From a virus: a stretch of 28,033 nt of DNA. The DNA lies in IMG/VR virus record IMGVR_UViG_3300007516_000103, positions 1 through 28,033 of that record; one strand, written 5' to 3'. The notes below the pieces were generated by a model. That model saw only the letters and a list, made by a program, of their open reading frames with translations. It ran no database searches and was not told where the DNA came from. The stretch's first letter is position 1; each line of letters begins with the position of its first letter. A program made the translations under genes and the position numbers. Positions 15,545 through 24,506 of the stretch are shown here, piece after piece.

Positions 15545-17830
15545 ATGATAGGAGTTCTCTCAAATATTCAAAATGCCTCTAATGACTTTGTTTTTAGAAT
15601 ACTTATAGAGCCTACTCCTAGTTCAGAAAGTATTGTTGTTCCTCCTGAGATAACTGACCCTGGGGAAATTGCAACATACATTGCTGAAGAACAAGCAAAG
15701 TATCCTTTATTTGTAGTTCCTTTTCAACTTGGTGGGACTTATGATCTTATTATTGATTGGGGAGATACTACAAGTAGCCCCAGTATAACAGCCTTTGATA
15801 CTCCTGTAGATTCCCATAAGCATAATTATGCTTCCCCAGGAGTTTATACAATTACAATTTCTGGTACAGATCTTAGAAATTTCAGATTTAGTAATAGCGA
15901 TTCTGCTAAAAAAGTAAGGGAGATTTTAAATTGGGGGTTCCTTGATATAGAAAACAACGGCTTAGGTTTCTTACACGGATGTACTGGAATGACAATACAA
16001 GCTCAAGATTTTTTCAATCCTGGGCCTTTGACTTCATGTCAAAACATGTTTCATTCAAATTATGTCAATCCTAGTATTCCTGGGATAGCTACTTGGGATG
16101 TTTCCGGAGTAGCAAGTTTCCAATACATGTTTGCTGGCAATTATCTTTTCAACGATAATATCTCTTCTTGGAACATGGCTTCTGCAGTAAACTTAGAAGG
16201 TATGCTGAAGAGCTGTTATGTATTTAACCAACCTGTGGGAAATTGGGTTCTTCCAGCTACTTGCACAATCGTAGTAAGGTTATTTGAAGGTTGTTTAGAT
16301 TTTGACCAACCTTTAAATTCTTGGGGGCCCTATTCTCTTAATTTCATTAACTTAAATTGGCTGTTTTATAATTGCCAAGATTTTAACCAAAGTCTTTCTA
16401 CTTGGTTAAATGCTCCTAATCCTTGTAATAGTTTACATTATACTTTTAGAGCTTGTCATAGTTTTGACCAAAATATAAATTCATGGAATATTTCAAATGT
16501 TACTGACCTAAGTTCCACATTTGAAGAAGCCTTTGTATTTGATAAGCCACTATCTAATTGGGATACTTCTTCTGTACAAAATATGAGTTATACTTTTTCT
16601 TATGCAAAAAAGTTTAATCAGCCTTTAAATACTTGGGATACTTCTGCTGTCACTAACATGTTTGGAATGTTCAGGTTTGCACATAAGTTTAATCAAGTGT
16701 TAGACGGGGATGCTTTATGGGATACTTCTCTAGTTATTAGCATGGGAGTAATGTTCTATAATGCTCTCGAATTTAACCAAGATGTATCAGATTGGAAGAC
16801 AAGTTCTGTAACAGATATGAGCGGAATGTTTGCTGCGTCAAGTTTCAATTTTGGACCTTTAGCAACAGTAGGTCCAAAATGGGATGTAAGCTCTGTAACA
16901 GATATGAGTAACATGTTTAGACAATGTCCTTTTAATAAAGCGCTAACAGATTGGGTGACAAGTTCTTTAATAAACACAAATTATATGTTTTTAACAAATG
17001 CTTCTTTTAACCAAGAAGTATTTCATTTTAATATGTCTTCAGTTACCTCTGTAGCAGGAATGTTTTATGGAGCAACTTCTTTTAATAAGACTGTAAATAG
17101 CTGGGACGTTTCTTTAGTTCAAGTCTTTGATGATCTTTTTAGAGGAGCAATAAACTTTAATAGAGAAGTAACAGATTGGGCAACTGGTAGTGCTACTTCG
17201 ATGGCACGTATGTTCTTCGGAGCTACACAGTTTAACAACGAAGGAGATATTCCATTGGTAAAAGATAGTGCTAAATGGGATGTTAGTCTTGTAGAAAATA
17301 TGAGCGGAATGTTTTATAACACTAAGATTAAACTGGGGTTATATAATTGGAATACTTCTTCTTGTACTAACATGAGTTCTATGTTGTATAACTGCACTCT
17401 TTTCAATGAAGATATCTCAGGCTGGGATGTAAGTTTTGTAACAGATTTTAATTACATGTTCCAAGGAGCTTCCATTTTTAATCAAGCTATAGGTTCTCCA
17501 GGAACTTGGGACACTTCGGCAGCTTTGAGTATGGAAGGTATGTTCTTATACGCTTATGGGTTTGACCAGACACTAGAAAACTTCGATGTCTCTTTAGTAG
17601 GTTCCGGTATATCAGGACAAGGTTTTACTAATTTTCTTAATAGTGTGACACTTTCTACTGCTAACTATGATGCGACTTTAAACTCTTTTGCTGGGCAAAC
17701 TCTAATTTCAAATCAAAATTTTCATGGGGGATTGTCTAAGTATACTGCTGCAGGACAAGCTTCAAGGGATACTTTAACAAATCCAGGAGGATTAAACTGG
17801 ACCATAATAGACCAAGGATTATTCCCATAA
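15545..17830 (+). CDS. PKD plus DUF285/BspA-like repeat adhesin, 761 residues
   Basis: A PKD-like domain spans about residues 60-110 (DWGDTTSSPS at 71-80 and HNYASPGVYTITISG at 93-107). About twenty DUF285/BspA-like repeats follow to about residue 700, each near 25 residues with the core W-D-x-S-x-V-T-x-M-x-x-M-F-x-x-A-x-x-F-N-Q. The C-terminus has the cap usual for bacterial members: LSTANYDATLNSFAGQ, then FHGGLSKYTAAGQASRDTL and WTIIDQG. Bacterial relatives are secreted or surface leucine-rich-repeat-like adhesins; this copy has no signal peptide, as expected for a virion protein assembled in the cytoplasm. A receptor-binding or surface-adhesion protein is the best reading. Repeat variation could adapt host contact. 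It may have been taken from a host genome. Confidence 0.85.
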   Translation: MIGVLSNIQNASNDFVFRILIEPTPSSESIVVPPEITDPGEIATYIAEEQAKYPLFVVPFQLGGTYDLIIDWGDTTSSPSITAFDTPVDSHKHNYASPGVYTITISGTDLRNFRFSNSDSAKKVREILNWGFLDIENNGLGFLHGCTGMTIQAQDFFNPGPLTSCQNMFHSNYVNPSIPGIATWDVSGVASFQYMFAGNYLFNDNISSWNMASAVNLEGMLKSCYVFNQPVGNWVLPATCTIVVRLFEGCLDFDQPLNSWGPYSLNFINLNWLFYNCQDFNQSLSTWLNAPNPCNSLHYTFRACHSFDQNINSWNISNVTDLSSTFEEAFVFDKPLSNWDTSSVQNMSYTFSYAKKFNQPLNTWDTSAVTNMFGMFRFAHKFNQVLDGDALWDTSLVISMGVMFYNALEFNQDVSDWKTSSVTDMSGMFAASSFNFGPLATVGPKWDVSSVTDMSNMFRQCPFNKALTDWVTSSLINTNYMFLTNASFNQEVFHFNMSSVTSVAGMFYGATSFNKTVNSWDVSLVQVFDDLFRGAINFNREVTDWATGSATSMARMFFGATQFNNEGDIPLVKDSAKWDVSLVENMSGMFYNTKIKLGLYNWNTSSCTNMSSMLYNCTLFNEDISGWDVSFVTDFNYMFQGASIFNQAIGSPGTWDTSAALSMEGMFLYAYGFDQTLENFDVSLVGSGISGQGFTNFLNSVTLSTANYDATLNSFAGQTLISNQNFHGGLSKYTAAGQASRDTLTNPGGLNWTIIDQGLFP

Positions 17831-17879: not shown

Positions 17880-18881
17880 ATGAAAAACATAACTTACACT
17901 TTTATTGCATTGCTGTTATTTATTTCTTGTAGCAAAGAAATAGATACTCCTATATTAGAAAAAACTCTTGTTGAACTTGCAGCTGAGCATAAACCTTCTG
18001 ATTTAGGAGATTATGAAATAGATCAAACTAGGATTCTTCTACTCGATACTAACATAGCGAGCTATTATACAGGGTATGGAGAATATTTCCCGTATGTAGA
18101 ATACTCTGCTCCTCAAGACCCGATTAATATCTCTAATTTAATTCATGGGGGAAATCCTTACGGAGACTTACGTGGTGCTATGGATACTGTCACAGGTGTA
18201 AAGTACAGAGCTTATTGGTTTGATGCTTTTTATAACGGTCTTTTCAGGAATTTTATTATCTACACAAAAGCTAATGATGAAAATCAAAATTGGGTATATA
18301 CTATAGACCAAGAGACTAATACTGCTGTTCTTATAGCAGGTGAAACTTTTGTGCAAACTCCTACAGGAAACAATCCTTTTGGATACGGTACAATGAAAGT
18401 TTATAATTCTACAGTAGCCATAACTAATGTGGGGCCCTATGATGTAAATCCTCTTATTGATTCTCAGGGAAAATTATATGTAGATGCATATTGGGACTTA
18501 GAAGTTCAACTTATTGACGGTTTAACAGGAGATACTTTAAAAGGAAGGTCCTATTCTTTTATACGTACTGAAAGTATACCTCCTACTACAATAACTGGAG
18601 TAGGCAGATTAAAAGCAGCTGATCCCGCTTTAGCCAACGGCTTATTTCCAACATATGATATATCCCCTTATGAGATTTTATACAACGGTAATCTTGTAAC
18701 TGTTTTTATTTACCCGGGTGCTTTGCACAGCTTTGCTTTAGGCGCAGGTAATACTTCCAATTCTACAATTATAGTCCAAGGATTTTTCAATGGGGATTTA
18801 ATTAATATCCCAATGTCGAGGTTTTCTAAGATAATTTACAAGAGTAACAGAGGTCAAGGTGCAAGCTACCCACAATACTAA
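17880..18881 (+). CDS. Phage-encoded lipoprotein, probably surface-exposed, 333 residues
   Basis: A lipoprotein signal is visible: MKN, a hydrophobic core TFIALLLFIS and Cys17 as the lipidated residue. The residues after it (S-K-E-I-D) partly match the Bacteroidetes export signal (Lys followed by acidic residues) that sends lipoproteins to the outer face of the outer membrane. The mature part is beta-rich, with many Tyr, Gly and Asn, and has no catalytic motif I recognise. It lies between the adhesin and the lysis genes, with an AT-rich leader containing TATAATAGTATAG that might be a promoter. By analogy with other phage lipoproteins it may block receptors against superinfection. Size rules out a simple outer-membrane spanin. 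The role is inferred. Confidence 0.75.
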   Translation: MKNITYTFIALLLFISCSKEIDTPILEKTLVELAAEHKPSDLGDYEIDQTRILLLDTNIASYYTGYGEYFPYVEYSAPQDPINISNLIHGGNPYGDLRGAMDTVTGVKYRAYWFDAFYNGLFRNFIIYTKANDENQNWVYTIDQETNTAVLIAGETFVQTPTGNNPFGYGTMKVYNSTVAITNVGPYDVNPLIDSQGKLYVDAYWDLEVQLIDGLTGDTLKGRSYSFIRTESIPPTTITGVGRLKAADPALANGLFPTYDISPYEILYNGNLVTVFIYPGALHSFALGAGNTSNSTIIVQGFFNGDLINIPMSRFSKIIYKSNRGQGASYPQY

Positions 18882-18940
18882 TACTAAACGGTTGCAGGAG
18901 ACCCAGCGCAAGGCGAATTTTTAAACTATTGAATACTTTT

Positions 18941-19210
18941 ATGAACCAGGAAATACAAACCTTCGTAGATAGCATCTCTACCGTATCAGATACAGTATCG
19001 AGGAACACAGGCGCAGTTATAGGCCTTGGAACGGGATACGCTGAAGTGGCCAATGGATACGACCTTATGCCCACCTATATATACCCCGACTGGCTCGTGT
19101 TCACTATGGATTTAGGGATTGTATTCCTGTATGGTGCTGTGGGCGCTCTGGGCGCTGCGCTTATCAATTGGATGTTGAAGAGATTCTTCGCTAGCAAAAA
19201 CAAAATATGA
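18941..19210 (+). CDS. Holin candidate, 89 residues
   Basis: Holins open the inner membrane at lysis time. The N-terminal 50 residues are polar (MNQEIQTFVDSISTVSDTVS), then a hydrophobic stretch runs from about 51 to 78 (DWLVFTMDLGIVFLYGAVGA then LGAALINWML), long enough for one or two tight membrane passes, followed by a basic tail KRFFASKNKI. The gene overlaps the amidase gene by four bases (ATGA at 19207-19210), which strongly supports the call. The ATG at 18941 is chosen over an in-frame TTG at 18929. The stretch is clearly GC-richer than its neighbours (near 47% against about 33% in sampled lines). Confidence 0.65.
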   Translation: MNQEIQTFVDSISTVSDTVSRNTGAVIGLGTGYAEVANGYDLMPTYIYPDWLVFTMDLGIVFLYGAVGALGAALINWMLKRFFASKNKI

Positions 19211-19845
19211 GAACAGCATCAAAACCCATAATGGCAGTAATAGTAGGGGCCATGATTGCTCTCGGAGTTTCCGTCTATGACTTCAGGGATGGGGAGGACT
19301 TCTCTGTTAAGGTTATTCCCGGACAGTCTTATGGAATAGCGGTCCATTTTGCAGAGACGTTTGGCGTAAGCTGTGCCGGATTAAAGAAAATTGGCATTGA
19401 AAGAGGCTTTAAGGATGCCTCTTATATCTCAGCATCTACATGGGATGGCTCATTGTGTATGTTCTCAGAGGTGGAAGAATCTACTTATGGAGTGAAGGCA
19501 CAAAACTCCAAATACATAAGTACCGTCTTTCTGGGCTCAGGAGACAAGAAAGCCGCTACAAGAAAGACAGTTAACACGATGGTGGCGCAACTTATTATCA
19601 TCGTGAAGGAGGTGGATAATCAAGGAGGTGTTATCAATGGCATCTACGCCCACAGGGACATACAACTACCCGGACACGGAACAGCTTGTCCAGGAGCAGT
19701 AGCTTATGCTCAATTGGTGTTGGATGGCTTCTATTCACACATTAAGGTGAATGGAGTAATGGTCCAGAATCCAAACTTCAAGGAGGGTATATTCAAGGAT
19801 TCTGATTTAATGGATGTATTCCTTAAAAAAGGAGTGATCAAATGA
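19207..19845 (+). CDS. N-acetylmuramoyl-L-alanine amidase endolysin, membrane-anchored, 212 residues
   Basis: This cleaves the bond between muramic acid and the peptide in the cell wall. It matches the Amidase_2/PGRP type: a strand with GIAVHFAET (H47) and IYAHRDIQLPGHGTACPGA (H149 and C161). H47, H149 and C161 correspond to the zinc ligands H17, H122 and C130 of T7 lysozyme. The middle part (50-145) departs from the T7 version. The N-terminus (SKPIMAVIVGAMIALGVSVY, 5-24) is a hydrophobic signal or anchor, so the enzyme could be exported by the host Sec pathway and released later (a signal-arrest-release type) without waiting for the holin. AAAGGAG (the site of the next gene) and ATGA overlaps show tight coupling in the lysis cassette. 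Confidence 0.82.
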   Translation: MRTASKPIMAVIVGAMIALGVSVYDFRDGEDFSVKVIPGQSYGIAVHFAETFGVSCAGLKKIGIERGFKDASYISASTWDGSLCMFSEVEESTYGVKAQNSKYISTVFLGSGDKKAATRKTVNTMVAQLIIIVKEVDNQGGVINGIYAHRDIQLPGHGTACPGAVAYAQLVLDGFYSHIKVNGVMVQNPNFKEGIFKDSDLMDVFLKKGVIK

Positions 19846-20219
19846 TGATAGGAATTTTGAAGATGACGAACCTTGTTAAAAAATATTGGTGGTTAGTAAT
19901 ATTAATTATCTTAATACTGTTTGCACTACTTAGATCCGTGCCAATGACAAAAAGCATGTTTGAAAAATATAAAGAAACAGAAAAAACAAAAAAAGAAATA
20001 GTACAACTGAAAAAAAGTTATAATAAAACAGAAGAAGACTTAAAAAATGCACGTAAATACATTGATGAGTCTATTGATATTATTAAACAATACGAGAAAA
20101 AGATAAATGAACTTGGTAAAAAAACCCCTACTGCTCCTGTTATTAGGAAGTTTACTGATAAGCAGCGGGATGCTCTTTGGGCAAAATACTACATTGAACT
20201 TAATCCCAGAAAGGATTAA
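19842..20219 (+). CDS. Inner-membrane spanin-like protein, 125 residues
   Basis: One N-terminal membrane segment (WWLVILIILILFALL, about 16-30) with positive residues before it (LVKK), followed by a long charged coiled coil (38-93: EKYKETEKTKKEIVQLKKSY and on) and a Pro-containing tail. This is the shape of an i-spanin, which sits in the inner membrane with its coiled coil in the periplasm. AAGGAG near 19828-19834 is a good ribosome site, unusual for this genome. The start overlaps the amidase stop, and the next gene starts inside its 3' end, the classic layout of spanin pairs. Family identity is from architecture only. Confidence 0.65.
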   Translation: MMIGILKMTNLVKKYWWLVILIILILFALLRSVPMTKSMFEKYKETEKTKKEIVQLKKSYNKTEEDLKNARKYIDESIDIIKQYEKKINELGKKTPTAPVIRKFTDKQRDALWAKYYIELNPRKD

Positions 20220-20547
20220 GTATGAAGGCGAACCTCGTATTATGTTTACATACCCTCAAGAAGATGTTTTACTAGATATCTTGGGAAGATGTGTAGACAT
20301 GAAGAGTGAAGTTTTTTGGAGTAAAAGTTTAAAAGATACCCTTTCTGTAAAGCTATATAAAACTAGCTCTGTTTTAAAAGTTGTATCTGATAGTTTGGCT
20401 ATCCAAAAGAAAATATGCTTTGAATGCCAAGAAGACAAAAAAGATTTGCTTGAAGAAAGCATAAAGAAAAGTAAGTGGGATAAACGAGAAGATGGCTTTT
20501 TTTTAAGTCTAATTGCAACTCTTACCGTATTGCTCATTTTAAAATGA
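20107..20547 (+). CDS. Overlapping spanin-partner candidate with signal peptide and C-terminal membrane segment, 146 residues
   Basis: The N-terminus is a strong Sec signal (MNLVKKPLLLLLLGSLLISS) with likely cleavage after residues near GMLFGQ. There is no lipobox Cys, so it is not a typical outer-membrane spanin lipoprotein. The periplasmic part (27-128) is charged and helical with a CFEC motif at 104-107. A second membrane segment (FFLSLIATLTVLLIL) ends the protein. The layout resembles a unimolecular spanin without its lipid anchor. The first 113 bases overlap the previous gene in another frame, so the signal peptide is coded inside the i-spanin tail. A lysis role fits the context, but an ordinary membrane protein is possible. 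Confidence 0.6.
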   Translation: MNLVKKPLLLLLLGSLLISSGMLFGQNTTLNLIPERIKYEGEPRIMFTYPQEDVLLDILGRCVDMKSEVFWSKSLKDTLSVKLYKTSSVLKVVSDSLAIQKKICFECQEDKKDLLEESIKKSKWDKREDGFFLSLIATLTVLLILK

Positions 20548-20580: not shown

Positions 20581-22461
20581 ATGGCTGATTGTGGAAGTAG
20601 TATATTAGAATCCATTGTTGTATCAGATATTAATAATAATCTGATTACCCTTACACAGGGAGACAAACTGACTGTAAAAACAAACAATCTTGGTGACGAG
20701 ATTCTTAAGATTTCTACAGCAGGTGCTAACTTATTGGCAGTAACCTTGATGCCAGGGGCTGGTGTAGCAACTGATGCCAGTACTGCAGACCCTTATGCAA
20801 TATTGTATGACGGAACTACGTCTACTTGGACTAGGTTAATTTCCGAAGATGCAGGTAATAAACTAGTTGTAGGAACTGACGGAGGATTATTTACATCTTT
20901 AGGTGCTGCAGACATAGGCACCATCTTTAAAATCTCTTCCGGAGATGATGGAGTTACTGTAGCAGAAGGGCCTTTTAATGTAGAACTAACAGACAGACTG
21001 CATTATTACTCTGATGGGTCTTTAGATTTTATTACAGACTTTTCTGCTGGTGTAGGTAAAATACAAGGTAAAGCGGTACTTTCTAGTACTTCTGGAAACC
21101 AACTTACTTTAGATGGCACTGGTCTTTTTGTACCTCAGACTAGCAACGTCATAACAACTCTTGCTTACACTAACGGAATTGTTACTTATACTAACGAAGC
21201 AGCTACAGTATTTAACTTGAATATTAATGCTTCTAATTTAAGAATAGCAGATACACATGATATCTTATTAAGTGGTATTGGAGCTATTACAAATATTCAA
21301 GCACTGTTTGATCAACTAGTGACACTTTCTGGTTCTGAAACTCTCACAACTCTTGGCTATAACTCTACTACTAATAAGCTATCTTATTTAGATGAACTAG
21401 GTGCTATTACTTCTATAACACTTAATACTGGGCAAACTTCCATTTTAGGAACTAATACCCCAGTAATGCAAATGGATGTATCGGGTACTGGCAGTGCACT
21501 AAACCCTTATATTTTAACACCTATCTTTAAAGGGAGATTCCCAGACTTATTAGATGTAAATATCAGTCAACAGAATATTGGGGATATTGTATATTGGACA
21601 GGTAGTAGCTACGACTTAAAAACTCCTTCCACAACAAGCGCTAATACAAATAGCTACATCCGTTCCGTGATACTTGAAGGAGCAGTTCTAAAATTTGAAG
21701 AAGGTGGAGATGGAGATGCATGGTCTGGGGATATTAACTTTCAACCTTTAATAAGCAGCATTGGGAATAGCTTTGTTCAAACAGTTGCCTTAGTTGGAAC
21801 AGACTTAACATTTACTGGAATAGGCTCAGCTTATAACGCTAGTGTACCCCTTGCTTCTTTAATAGGAGGAGGTTATACTTTTAGTACAAAAGATAAACAA
21901 GGCACTATAACAGCTATTACTAATGCAGAAGTTTTAGGCATTATACCAAGTATTTCTACTACAGATTTAATAAAAACAACTACAGTTGTAACTGGCTCGG
22001 GACATGATATAGAAATTGCTATTATAGGCACAGGTGCTAGTTCAGGTTTTACTACTATGCGCTGGGATATGGCTGCTCAAAAAGCTTATTGGGGAAGTAG
22101 TGAAACAGACCCAGTAGTAAAAGAGTCTTTTTCTATCACAGAATTTGCTAGAAATGCAGACTTAGAAGCACTTATAAATGGTAAAATCTTCTTTGTTGTT
22201 CCTCAGTATATGGCAGGTAAAGCTATCAAAAGATACAAAGTAACTGTTCCTACAGCTCATACAGGAAGCGCTTTAACAGGAGACCTCAGAGTAGACGGGG
22301 TATCTGTAAATAGTTTCTCTATTGCTGATGGAGTTAGTACTAAAAACGTTTCAGGTTTAAATATTATACTAGTAGAAGACCAACTTATAGATGTTGTATT
22401 AACAGCAGTAGGAACTACTACTCCAGGAACAGGAATGAATGTAGTTGTAACAATAGAATAA
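20581..22461 (+). CDS. Tail or head fibre-like protein, 626 residues
   Basis: The sequence is rich in Thr, Ser, Gly, Asn and Leu and dominated by short strands, typical of trimeric fibres. The N-terminus (MADCGSSILESIVVSDINNN) would be the virion-attachment part. Internal segments repeat a theme with N-x-L-T-L and GTGLFVPQTSNVITTL, as in fibre shafts. The C-terminal ~120 residues (IFFVVPQYMAGKAIKRYKVT, then ALTGDLRVDGVSVNSFSI) look like a globular beta-sandwich that could bind a receptor or glycan. The gene overlaps the next by one base (TAATG). No chaperone or enzyme motif is seen. Head fibre versus tail fibre cannot be decided. Confidence 0.65.
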   Translation: MADCGSSILESIVVSDINNNLITLTQGDKLTVKTNNLGDEILKISTAGANLLAVTLMPGAGVATDASTADPYAILYDGTTSTWTRLISEDAGNKLVVGTDGGLFTSLGAADIGTIFKISSGDDGVTVAEGPFNVELTDRLHYYSDGSLDFITDFSAGVGKIQGKAVLSSTSGNQLTLDGTGLFVPQTSNVITTLAYTNGIVTYTNEAATVFNLNINASNLRIADTHDILLSGIGAITNIQALFDQLVTLSGSETLTTLGYNSTTNKLSYLDELGAITSITLNTGQTSILGTNTPVMQMDVSGTGSALNPYILTPIFKGRFPDLLDVNISQQNIGDIVYWTGSSYDLKTPSTTSANTNSYIRSVILEGAVLKFEEGGDGDAWSGDINFQPLISSIGNSFVQTVALVGTDLTFTGIGSAYNASVPLASLIGGGYTFSTKDKQGTITAITNAEVLGIIPSISTTDLIKTTTVVTGSGHDIEIAIIGTGASSGFTTMRWDMAAQKAYWGSSETDPVVKESFSITEFARNADLEALINGKIFFVVPQYMAGKAIKRYKVTVPTAHTGSALTGDLRVDGVSVNSFSIADGVSTKNVSGLNIILVEDQLIDVVLTAVGTTTPGTGMNVVVTIE

Positions 22462-23042
22462 TGGCAAAAGTTTGTACAAATATATGTTTAGGTTTATCCT
22501 GTGATGGGTTATCAATTACAGACGTCTCTGGATTATACCCTGATAAAGCTATGGGGTGGCAATATAATCCAGGAGATACAGCTGTACCTACTACAGATAT
22601 AGATTCAATAACTCTAACAGTAACTGACCCAGAAAGTGTAATCACTGTTTATGCTATTCCTTCCGGTAACTATACAGATCCGGCTTTACCTAGCATGTCT
22701 ATAGCAGACATAGATATGGAACTTCCAGATGGTCTTTATACTTTTGAGTATCAAATAGAATTTTTGACAGAAGAAAATTGTGCTACAGCTTCAGTAACAA
22801 CGATGTTAATCACAAAAAGTTTGTCTTGCTGTTTAAGGTCATTAGAAGCAAAAGCGCTTTTAGCTACTACCAGTACAGAATATGAAAGCCTTATTAAAGA
22901 ACATACTAAATTATCAATGGAATTACACGGACTATTAACTTCTGTAAATTCTGAATCAATAACGGACCCACTTTTAGTAAAAGATATAATTGAAGATCTT
23001 TCTACTAGATGCAAAGCCATATCTAAAAACTGCGACTGCTAA
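22461..23042 (+). CDS. Cys-rich virion-associated protein, 193 residues
   Basis: The N-terminal half (1-115) is a beta-sandwich-like domain with GDTAVPTTDIDSITLTVTDP and DGLYTFEYQIEFLTEENC. The C-terminal half is helical (SLEAKALLATTSTEYESLIK, then KLSMELHGLLTS) and ends with KAISKNCDC. Cys residues cluster at the N-terminus (C5, C9, C14), at CC in the middle and in the last six residues. It is bracketed by one-base TAATG overlaps with the fibre gene before it and the Cys-rich protein after it, so the three are likely made together. A fibre-attachment or assembly role is the best guess; no family is recognised. Confidence 0.6.
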   Translation: MAKVCTNICLGLSCDGLSITDVSGLYPDKAMGWQYNPGDTAVPTTDIDSITLTVTDPESVITVYAIPSGNYTDPALPSMSIADIDMELPDGLYTFEYQIEFLTEENCATASVTTMLITKSLSCCLRSLEAKALLATTSTEYESLIKEHTKLSMELHGLLTSVNSESITDPLLVKDIIEDLSTRCKAISKNCDC

Positions 23043-24259
23043 TGTGCACATGTAATTCTTCTTCTTGTAATGGTGCCTGCGGGAGCCTTATTGTAAATAA
23101 AGGAACTTCAGGAAATCCTGGAGTTGGGATAAGATCCATTACCTCTTCTGTTGATTCTGTAGGCAATACTATAATTAAAATCACTCTGACTAGTGGAGTT
23201 GTAAACAACGTTACTTTGCCAATAGGTTTACAAGGTTTGTCTGTACATCATTCTTCTATTACTAAAAGTACTATTTCTAGTCTTAAGCCTCCTACAGCGA
23301 GTCTACCAGGAGCAGTAGATACATATACACTATGGGCAGATGAAGCAGAAACTATTGCTATAGGGACTTATAAAATATATAATGGAGCAGATGGTTTATC
23401 AGATTCTGTATTTTCCAATGTTGGTGGTGAAGCAGAAGTATTCCAAGTTGGTTCTGCGTATAACTTTAGAACTTTTAAGTCAGATAACTTAACTGTTACT
23501 CAAACTACGGATCAAATAAAAATAAATGACCCGAGATACCCCGTAGAGGTAGTTCTTACAAGTTCTTCGGGAACGTATGATCTTTTAATGGATAGTTACC
23601 AATACTATCAGCCTATTGAAATTACAAACAAAACCCTTTCCCCAGTTACAATTGTAATACCAGCTGGGTACTCTTTTGAGGAATGTCCGTATCTTATATC
23701 CCCTCTGCAACTAGTCTTGCTTCCTACAGGGACTTTACGTGTTTGGAAGTCTTTAAAAGAGACTGTTAATAAGGTTAGTATACTCTCTTATAAGTGCAAA
23801 GCTTATTCAAGAGAAGTAACAGACTTCCAGAATAACTTTAAGTATGACACAGATAGGATATATGTTACAGCAACAGAATCTAGACAAATAACTATTGCAG
23901 GAAGACTGAGATTTGCAGGATCTAATATAAATGACAATGGAATTGTCTTTAAAATAGAAACTCCTTTTACTCCTCCTAGAGTAGTTTACTTTGAAGGAAC
24001 TGCATTTATCAATGGAGGAAGCCCTTCTGTATTAACTTCTTTAGGACAACAAACTGCTTTCCCTGTAAGCTTTTCAGTAAGTCCTGCAGGAATAGTTACT
24101 CTTATAGGAGCAGCTGCACGTATTGGCTCTGTAGATCCTAGTCCTTTATCTGCTGGTTCTGATGTCAGATTTGTTAAAACTTACATTGACACAATAAGAT
24201 TCACTGGAATATGGGATGGAGCAAACGCTATAAATACAGTTCCAATAAGCGATTCTTAA
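23042..24259 (+). CDS. Virion or fibre-like protein with Cys-rich N-terminus, 405 residues
   Basis: The first 14 residues (MCTCNSSSCNGACG) hold four Cys, followed by a Gly-rich KGTSGNPGVGIRSI section. Strand-rich domains follow: about 30-60 (IIKITLTSGVVNNVTLPIGL), about 95-120 (YTLWADEAETIAIGTYKIYN) and a middle part near 165-205 with SSSGTYDLLMDSYQYYQPIE. The C-terminal domain (about 270-405) has YVTATESRQITIAGRLRFAG and a final RFTGIWDGANAINTVPI, resembling a receptor-binding beta-sandwich. No enzymatic motif. Coupling to the previous Cys-rich gene by TAATG suggests the two proteins meet in the virion. Confidence 0.6.
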   Translation: MCTCNSSSCNGACGSLIVNKGTSGNPGVGIRSITSSVDSVGNTIIKITLTSGVVNNVTLPIGLQGLSVHHSSITKSTISSLKPPTASLPGAVDTYTLWADEAETIAIGTYKIYNGADGLSDSVFSNVGGEAEVFQVGSAYNFRTFKSDNLTVTQTTDQIKINDPRYPVEVVLTSSSGTYDLLMDSYQYYQPIEITNKTLSPVTIVIPAGYSFEECPYLISPLQLVLLPTGTLRVWKSLKETVNKVSILSYKCKAYSREVTDFQNNFKYDTDRIYVTATESRQITIAGRLRFAGSNINDNGIVFKIETPFTPPRVVYFEGTAFINGGSPSVLTSLGQQTAFPVSFSVSPAGIVTLIGAAARIGSVDPSPLSAGSDVRFVKTYIDTIRFTGIWDGANAINTVPISDS

Positions 24260-24260
24260 A

Positions 24261-24506
24261 ATGACTTTTGAAGAATTTCAAAATAAAGTAAAAGCATTAC
24301 AATCTGCTTATGGTTCTAAAATAGAAATATTTAGAGTTAAAAGATCTTATGGATTATTCTGCAATGGCTTTTACGAAATATATGCTTATCGAGCCCTAAA
24401 ATTCTTATCTTGCACTACAGAAGCAGAGTTCTTAGAAACCTGTGCTTGTGTTAGTCAAAAAGATATTCTACAAATTTTGAATAAAGCCAGTGAAAGATTA
24501 TGCTAA
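24261..24506 (+). CDS. Small protein of unknown function, 81 residues
   Basis: The ATG is one base after the previous stop. The protein is compact: a helix (TFEEFQNKVKALQSAYG), two strands (KIEIFRVKRSYGLFCNGFYE) and a C-terminal helix pair with a CTTEAEFLETCACVSQKDIL section. Four Cys are spread through the middle and one more is the last residue. It overlaps the next adaptor gene by seven bases. The position marks the return from fibre/lysis genes to the crAss-like tail block. No family recognised; a small virion or assembly factor is possible. Confidence 0.6.
   Translation: MTFEEFQNKVKALQSAYGSKIEIFRVKRSYGLFCNGFYEIYAYRALKFLSCTTEAEFLETCACVSQKDILQILNKASERLC

Follow-up and report, generated by a model that had tools for sequence, protein, structure and literature searches.

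A new two-member family of crAss-like phage lipoproteins at the lysis genes, a candidate for superinfection exclusion or for release through the outer membrane

Envelope lipoproteins of coliphages are known exclusion factors, and none has been described for crAss-like phages in the literature that we found. The crAss-like phages persist with their hosts without lysogeny. In phage T5, the gene of the lipoprotein Llp is adjacent to and downstream of the receptor-binding gene pb5, and its product inactivates the receptor (PMC9586334); Rtp45 disables the receptor LptD likewise (PMC12685063). In B. thetaiotaomicron, the susceptibility to phages is modified by lipoproteins (work cited in PMC8375218). 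Concerning export to the cell surface, the optimal lipoprotein export signal (LES) of Capnocytophaga (C. canimorsus) is C-X-K-(D/E)2-X at positions +2 to +6 (PMC5080379), and a looser rule demands two or more acidic residues among the six that follow the cysteine (PMC12578637). The phage-specific lipoprotein described here, which is better conserved than the capsid protein and is located at the lysis genes, represents a concrete candidate for exclusion or for outer-membrane release.

The window, i.e. the whole analysed stretch of 28,033 nucleotides, is an IMG/VR virus record and is 99.96% identical to part of a contig of 44,433 bases. It is a fragment of a crAss-like phage, a virus group that infects Bacteroidota. 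Its terminase, portal and capsid proteins match head-and-packaging families of PHROGs, and the capsid protein displays 29% identity with that of crAss001 (over 95% of the length) and 28% with that of Cellulophaga phage phi14:2. The gene order of the Crassvirales is present (terminase, portal, capsid, ring proteins, IHF-like, tail tubular), and the phage carries the features of this order, namely the crAss-type MCP, the portal, TerL, the IHF-like gene and the ring/tail order. TAG is used as stop codon by none of the 24 main window genes, the late genes are intact under translation table 11, and no tRNA was found in the window. Near the left end, a short DUF285 match (1262-1381, in the ORF 1106-1360) represents a further, small copy of the repeat that the tail-region protein contains.

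The ORF of the lipoprotein is a real gene: when the surrounding 2 kb were shuffled 500 times, the longest open frames had a median of 72 codons and a maximum of 174. A phage-coded lipoprotein of 333 residues, between an adhesin and lysis genes, had been proposed by the sequence-only reading, and this description was confirmed (Table 1). The ORF is located exactly at 17880-18881 and its product is predicted to be lipidated, with the DUF285-repeat protein upstream and the holin-like ORF, the amidase and the spanin-like ORFs downstream. The mature protein has 317 residues, a mass of about 35 kDa and a pI of 4.6. After the signal, neither a transmembrane segment (TM) nor a coiled coil is present according to hydropathy and to a low-confidence model. 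The protein is probably soluble and beta-rich, the strand calls being of low confidence.

Table 1. Features of the lipoprotein gene and of its neighbours, with positions in the window.
Feature	Position	Strand	Remark
761-aa DUF285 (BspA-like) repeat protein, putative tail/adhesion; no signal peptide seen	15545-17830	+	upstream neighbour
Lipoprotein gene	17880-18881	+	333 aa, ATG...TAA
Predicted signal peptide MKNITYTFIALLLFIS, lipobox FIS↓C	17880-17927	+	read from the sequence; L004, the relative, has LLS↓C in the same layout
Predicted lipidated Cys +1, partial surface-export motif C-S-K-E-I-D	17928-17945	+	compared with the motif in PMC5080379
Most conserved block, residues 51-100	18030-18179	+	39/50 identical; EYFPYVEYSxPQDPINIxNLxHGGNPYGDLR
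Small protein with C-terminal transmembrane stretch, putative holin	18929-19210	+	downstream neighbour
Amidase/endolysin	19207-19845	+	weak PHROG amidase match (phrog_822, E 5.7e-4)
i-spanin-like protein	19842-20219	+	N-terminal TM, then coiled coil
Overlapping protein: signal peptide (LFG↓Q, no Cys), C-terminal TM	20107-20547	+	recurs in two other crAss-like phages

The N-terminus reads MKNITYTFIALLLFIS↓CSKEIDTPILEK, with CSKEID after the cleavage site. It has the layout of a signal peptidase II substrate, MKN-ITYTFIALLLFIS-C, which contains a positive n-region, a hydrophobic h-region and a lipobox, and lipidation is predicted. This ORF is the sole one of the window phage that passed a strict filter for signal peptidase II substrates; each of 20 further crAss-like records or fragments yielded zero to two. 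The sequence-only reading had seen a surface-export-like signal behind the cysteine, and part of it is found. Lys at +3 and Glu at +4 fit the LES and a second acid, Asp, stands at +6, which gives two acids within +2 to +6; on the other hand, Ile at +5 breaks K-(D/E)2, so that the strict C-X-K-(D/E)2-X is absent, and the motif is not kept in the relative. The latter reads C-S-K-T-E-V, with a single acid, and is weaker than the window protein. Under the looser rule the window protein passes (E, D) and the relative does not (one E). These residues make exposure of the lipoprotein on the surface possible.

No family match was obtained in Pfam, NCBIfam, PHROGs or the PDB sequences, including with a sequence profile. 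The fold search that had been advised with the first description of the locus was run on AlphaFold models built from 2-3 sequences; they have pLDDT values of 43 and 40 and gave no significant fold match. The claim of an unknown fold is supported. The only fold trait that can be reported is a predicted tendency to beta strands, and the fold searches were not used as evidence for the exclusion explanation discussed below. This beta-rich prediction, the many invariant W/Y/D/E/H/R residues and the invariant block HGGNPYGDLR would suit an envelope-active enzyme or a glycan binder, a lipoprotein of the surface or of the periplasm that would cut or bind host glycan (capsule, O-antigen or peptidoglycan) and would alter adsorption or release. 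Among the weak matches of the first model there are also several glycosidases with a five-bladed propeller (best 3qz4, E 3.5e-3). However, the TM-score of the propeller (GH43-like) matches is about 0.13, against a threshold of 0.5, on a model of pLDDT 43 that is too poor to decide, which makes them meaningless. The second model gave few GH43 matches, with E-values of about 0.5 and above and ranked below acylaminoacyl peptidases, and the sequence searches of Pfam, NCBIfam and PDB also speak against such an activity, which we consider improbable.

Relatives were searched in phages and in cellular genomes. Annotated phages gave no relative of the lipoprotein by tblastn, and no cellular homologue emerged when about 85,000 prokaryote (GTDB) genomes were scanned with patterns. 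In IMG/VR, pattern scans confirmed by tblastn detected one other distinct member, in the contigs L003/L004 of a distant crAss-like phage. This relative is also a lipoprotein and displays 45-47% amino-acid identity with the window protein. The scans of viral contigs used lipoprotein queries plus the MCP and recovered only two distinct members; since they rely on short peptide patterns, distant homologues may have escaped them. When 17 crAss-like records were searched with the profile, the lipoprotein appeared in the three contigs already known and in none of the other 14. The two proteins form a new orphan family of phage lipoproteins. Matches to mycobacteriophage tape-measure proteins (E 0.1) and to nsp3 (E 0.6) were attributed to chance, and homology with the lipoproteins of the crAss-like contigs L008 and L026 was rejected because the alignments span little beyond the signal region.

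In global alignments between the window and the L004 phage, the lipoprotein is the most conserved of all shared genes with 46% identity; the values are 38% for TerL, 33% for a ring protein, 30% for the MCP and 28% for the portal, and those of the lysis region are 26-29% for the spanin-like proteins and 23% for the amidase. Such a conservation between two distant phages fits a factor that faces a conserved host target. The third codon positions of the two lipoprotein genes are only 43% identical, and the codons for the same amino acid differ by their third base in 49 of 71 cases. These near-saturated third positions, together with the conserved protein, indicate an old split and purifying selection, and a recent transfer between both phages was rejected on account of the same codons. 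The GC3 of the lipoprotein gene (24%) is equal to that of the tail genes, so the gene is a long-term resident and a fresh import from a host was rejected. Two outliers of GC3 were observed in the window, the holin-like gene (52%) and the amidase gene (44%), against about 17-33% elsewhere; this pair (18929-19845) is likely a recently acquired lysis module.

The lipoprotein gene is included in a run of structural and lysis genes on the same strand, and its position suggests late expression. The 49-bp gap upstream contains no terminator-like site. A separate promoter was rejected: this region lacks the Bacteroidota consensus, and its sigma-70-like sites are no more frequent than by chance. In L004, the lipoprotein ATG and the stop codon of the fibre-like gene in front of it share a 4-nt overlap, as would be expected if the two genes are co-transcribed. 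Such a place among the late structural and lysis genes, where no promoter could be recognised for the gene alone, does not favour a moron that would alter the living host (adhesion, nutrient binding, or defence against other phages or predators) and have no role at the lysis of the phage, and no cellular relative is known. A moron would nevertheless agree with the sporadic distribution of the family, of which two crAss-like lineages have a member and the other 14 profile-searched records none, and with the unrelated lipoproteins found elsewhere in crAss-like genomes; we regard it as quite unlikely. The structural genes all around could also suggest that the lipoprotein ends in or on the particle, as the annotation of phi14:2 places many genes of the corresponding block in virions (mass spectrometry). 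The Sec/lipobox N-terminus would however direct the protein to the envelope and not to the cytoplasmic site of assembly, and phi14:2 contains no homologue of the lipoprotein; we hold a place in the virion to be highly improbable.

In both phages, the cassette holin-amidase-spanin is directly 3' of the lipoprotein gene. The tail-fibre block is located after this cassette in the window (20581-24506) and before it in L004 (5685-9968). Since the fibre block switches sides and the lipoprotein stays, the latter is tied to the lysis genes and not to a particular adhesin; this synteny rests on two phages and represents one contrast, without a statistic. The neighbours of the lipoprotein gene are in both cases putative adhesion/fibre genes, which are unrelated to each other, and the switch of the fibre block weakens the pairing of the lipoprotein with the neighbouring adhesin. 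The constant place directly 5' of the lysis genes would agree with a lysis accessory, either replacing the o-spanin or destabilising the outer membrane in cooperation with the neighbouring i-spanin-like protein. A search down to 30 aa, nested frames included, detected no further lipoprotein ORF in the lysis region of either phage, and an o-spanin concealed within these genes was rejected. Since its signal peptide is devoid of Cys, the protein that overlaps the i-spanin is no o-spanin by lipidation. Moreover, a lipoprotein resembling a u-spanin adjoins the amidase in another crAss-like record (L014:9285-9824). On the other hand, the lipoprotein is acidic and far larger than o-spanins, and has no coiled coil, no Pro-rich linker and no C-terminal TM. 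It is conserved at 46%, against 26-29% for its would-be spanin-like partners, and L008 possesses the same i-spanin/signal-TM pair without an adjacent lipoprotein, which indicates that the pair can manage alone. We judge such a lysis function, which is the main rival of the exclusion discussed below, rather unlikely.

Several observations were made on the lysis genes themselves. The overlapping pair of i-spanin-like and signal-TM proteins is present in three crAss-like phages (window 19842-20547; L004:12479-13196; L033, reverse complement, 505-1246) and is a possible non-lipoprotein variant of spanins. The signal-TM protein has the cleavage site G↓Q in the three phages, in agreement with the Q-rule of Bacteroidetes for signal peptidase I (PMC5837995). 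The L014 lipoprotein has 179 aa, with a C-terminal TM and thus the layout of a u-spanin. At the spanin position of phi14:2, g076 (L027:30611-31189) has an N-terminal TM and a beta-like C-terminus that ends with Phe (GGSIKF), suggestive of insertion into the outer membrane.

Taken together, the lipoprotein probably acts on the outer membrane of the host late in infection. Our tentative explanation, which we hold to be possible rather than probable, is that it masks or inactivates the phage receptor, for superinfection exclusion or protection of the progeny. The crAss-like phage would produce this acidic 35-kDa lipoprotein late in infection; after export by Sec and signal peptidase II, the protein would be anchored in the outer membrane of the host, as its predicted lipidation suggests, and would bind a conserved component of the envelope. 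The receptor would then be masked or inactivated both on cells already infected and on lysis debris, and progeny would not be wasted. The lipobox of both members, the lack of cellular homologues and of family matches and the residence in phages of two lineages are counted in favour of this exclusion. The place in a same-strand run of structural and lysis genes, the long residence indicated by GC3, the conservation above that of all other shared genes, the probably soluble and beta-rich protein and the precedents of Llp, Rtp45 and the B. thetaiotaomicron lipoproteins are counted likewise, and a periplasmic localisation would be compatible with it because Llp and Rtp45 are periplasmic. Against it, the exclusion lipoproteins described so far reach at most about a fifth of its size and show no detectable similarity; Llp is early, whereas the window lipoprotein belongs to the late block; the two phages have unrelated receptor-binding neighbours and yet a conserved lipoprotein, which stays with the lysis genes when the fibre block switches sides; and the LES is incomplete in the window protein and weaker in the relative. 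Superinfection exclusion is graded as possible, a help at lysis being about as well supported by synteny. A stronger form, in which a large lipoprotein displayed on the surface would coat the host's outer membrane ahead of lysis and keep out the phage itself and related phages, appears distinctly unlikely to us. If true, it would be the first known exclusion protein of the Crassvirales, and its action from outside would make it an exclusion lipoprotein of a new kind.

Compared with known systems, the lipoproteins encoded upstream of the terminase in other environmental crAss-like phages (L008:2937-3701; L012/L026:3590-4132) are also phage-coded and come from the same viral order, and that of L008 shares with the window protein a KTLVEVA-like N-terminal stretch. 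They differ by their gene place, by dockerin-like calcium motifs (DFDADGLVATSDLNIFIQRYG, DFNGNQITDASDLATLLTGYG) and by a similarity confined to the signal region and the adjoining residues. Like the o-spanins and u-spanins, the window protein is a predicted lipoprotein encoded beside the genes of holin, endolysin and i-spanin, but it is large, globular and acidic and lacks both a coiled coil and a C-terminal TM. With the LES lipoproteins of Bacteroidota (C. canimorsus), the likeness is C-S-K-E plus the acid at +6 and the difference is Ile at +5. Concerning Llp (T5), Cor (T1-like) and Rtp45 (Rtp), no similarity to the window lipoprotein was detected in phages, PHROGs or Pfam. These proteins are small (about 6 kDa for Rtp45), Llp and Rtp45 being periplasmic and Llp early, whereas the window protein has 333 aa, lies in the late block and is not co-conserved with the neighbouring receptor-binding gene. 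All are nevertheless phage-coded lipoproteins; the gene of Llp follows a receptor-binding gene, and that of the window lipoprotein adjoins a putative adhesion gene that is unrelated to its counterpart in L004.
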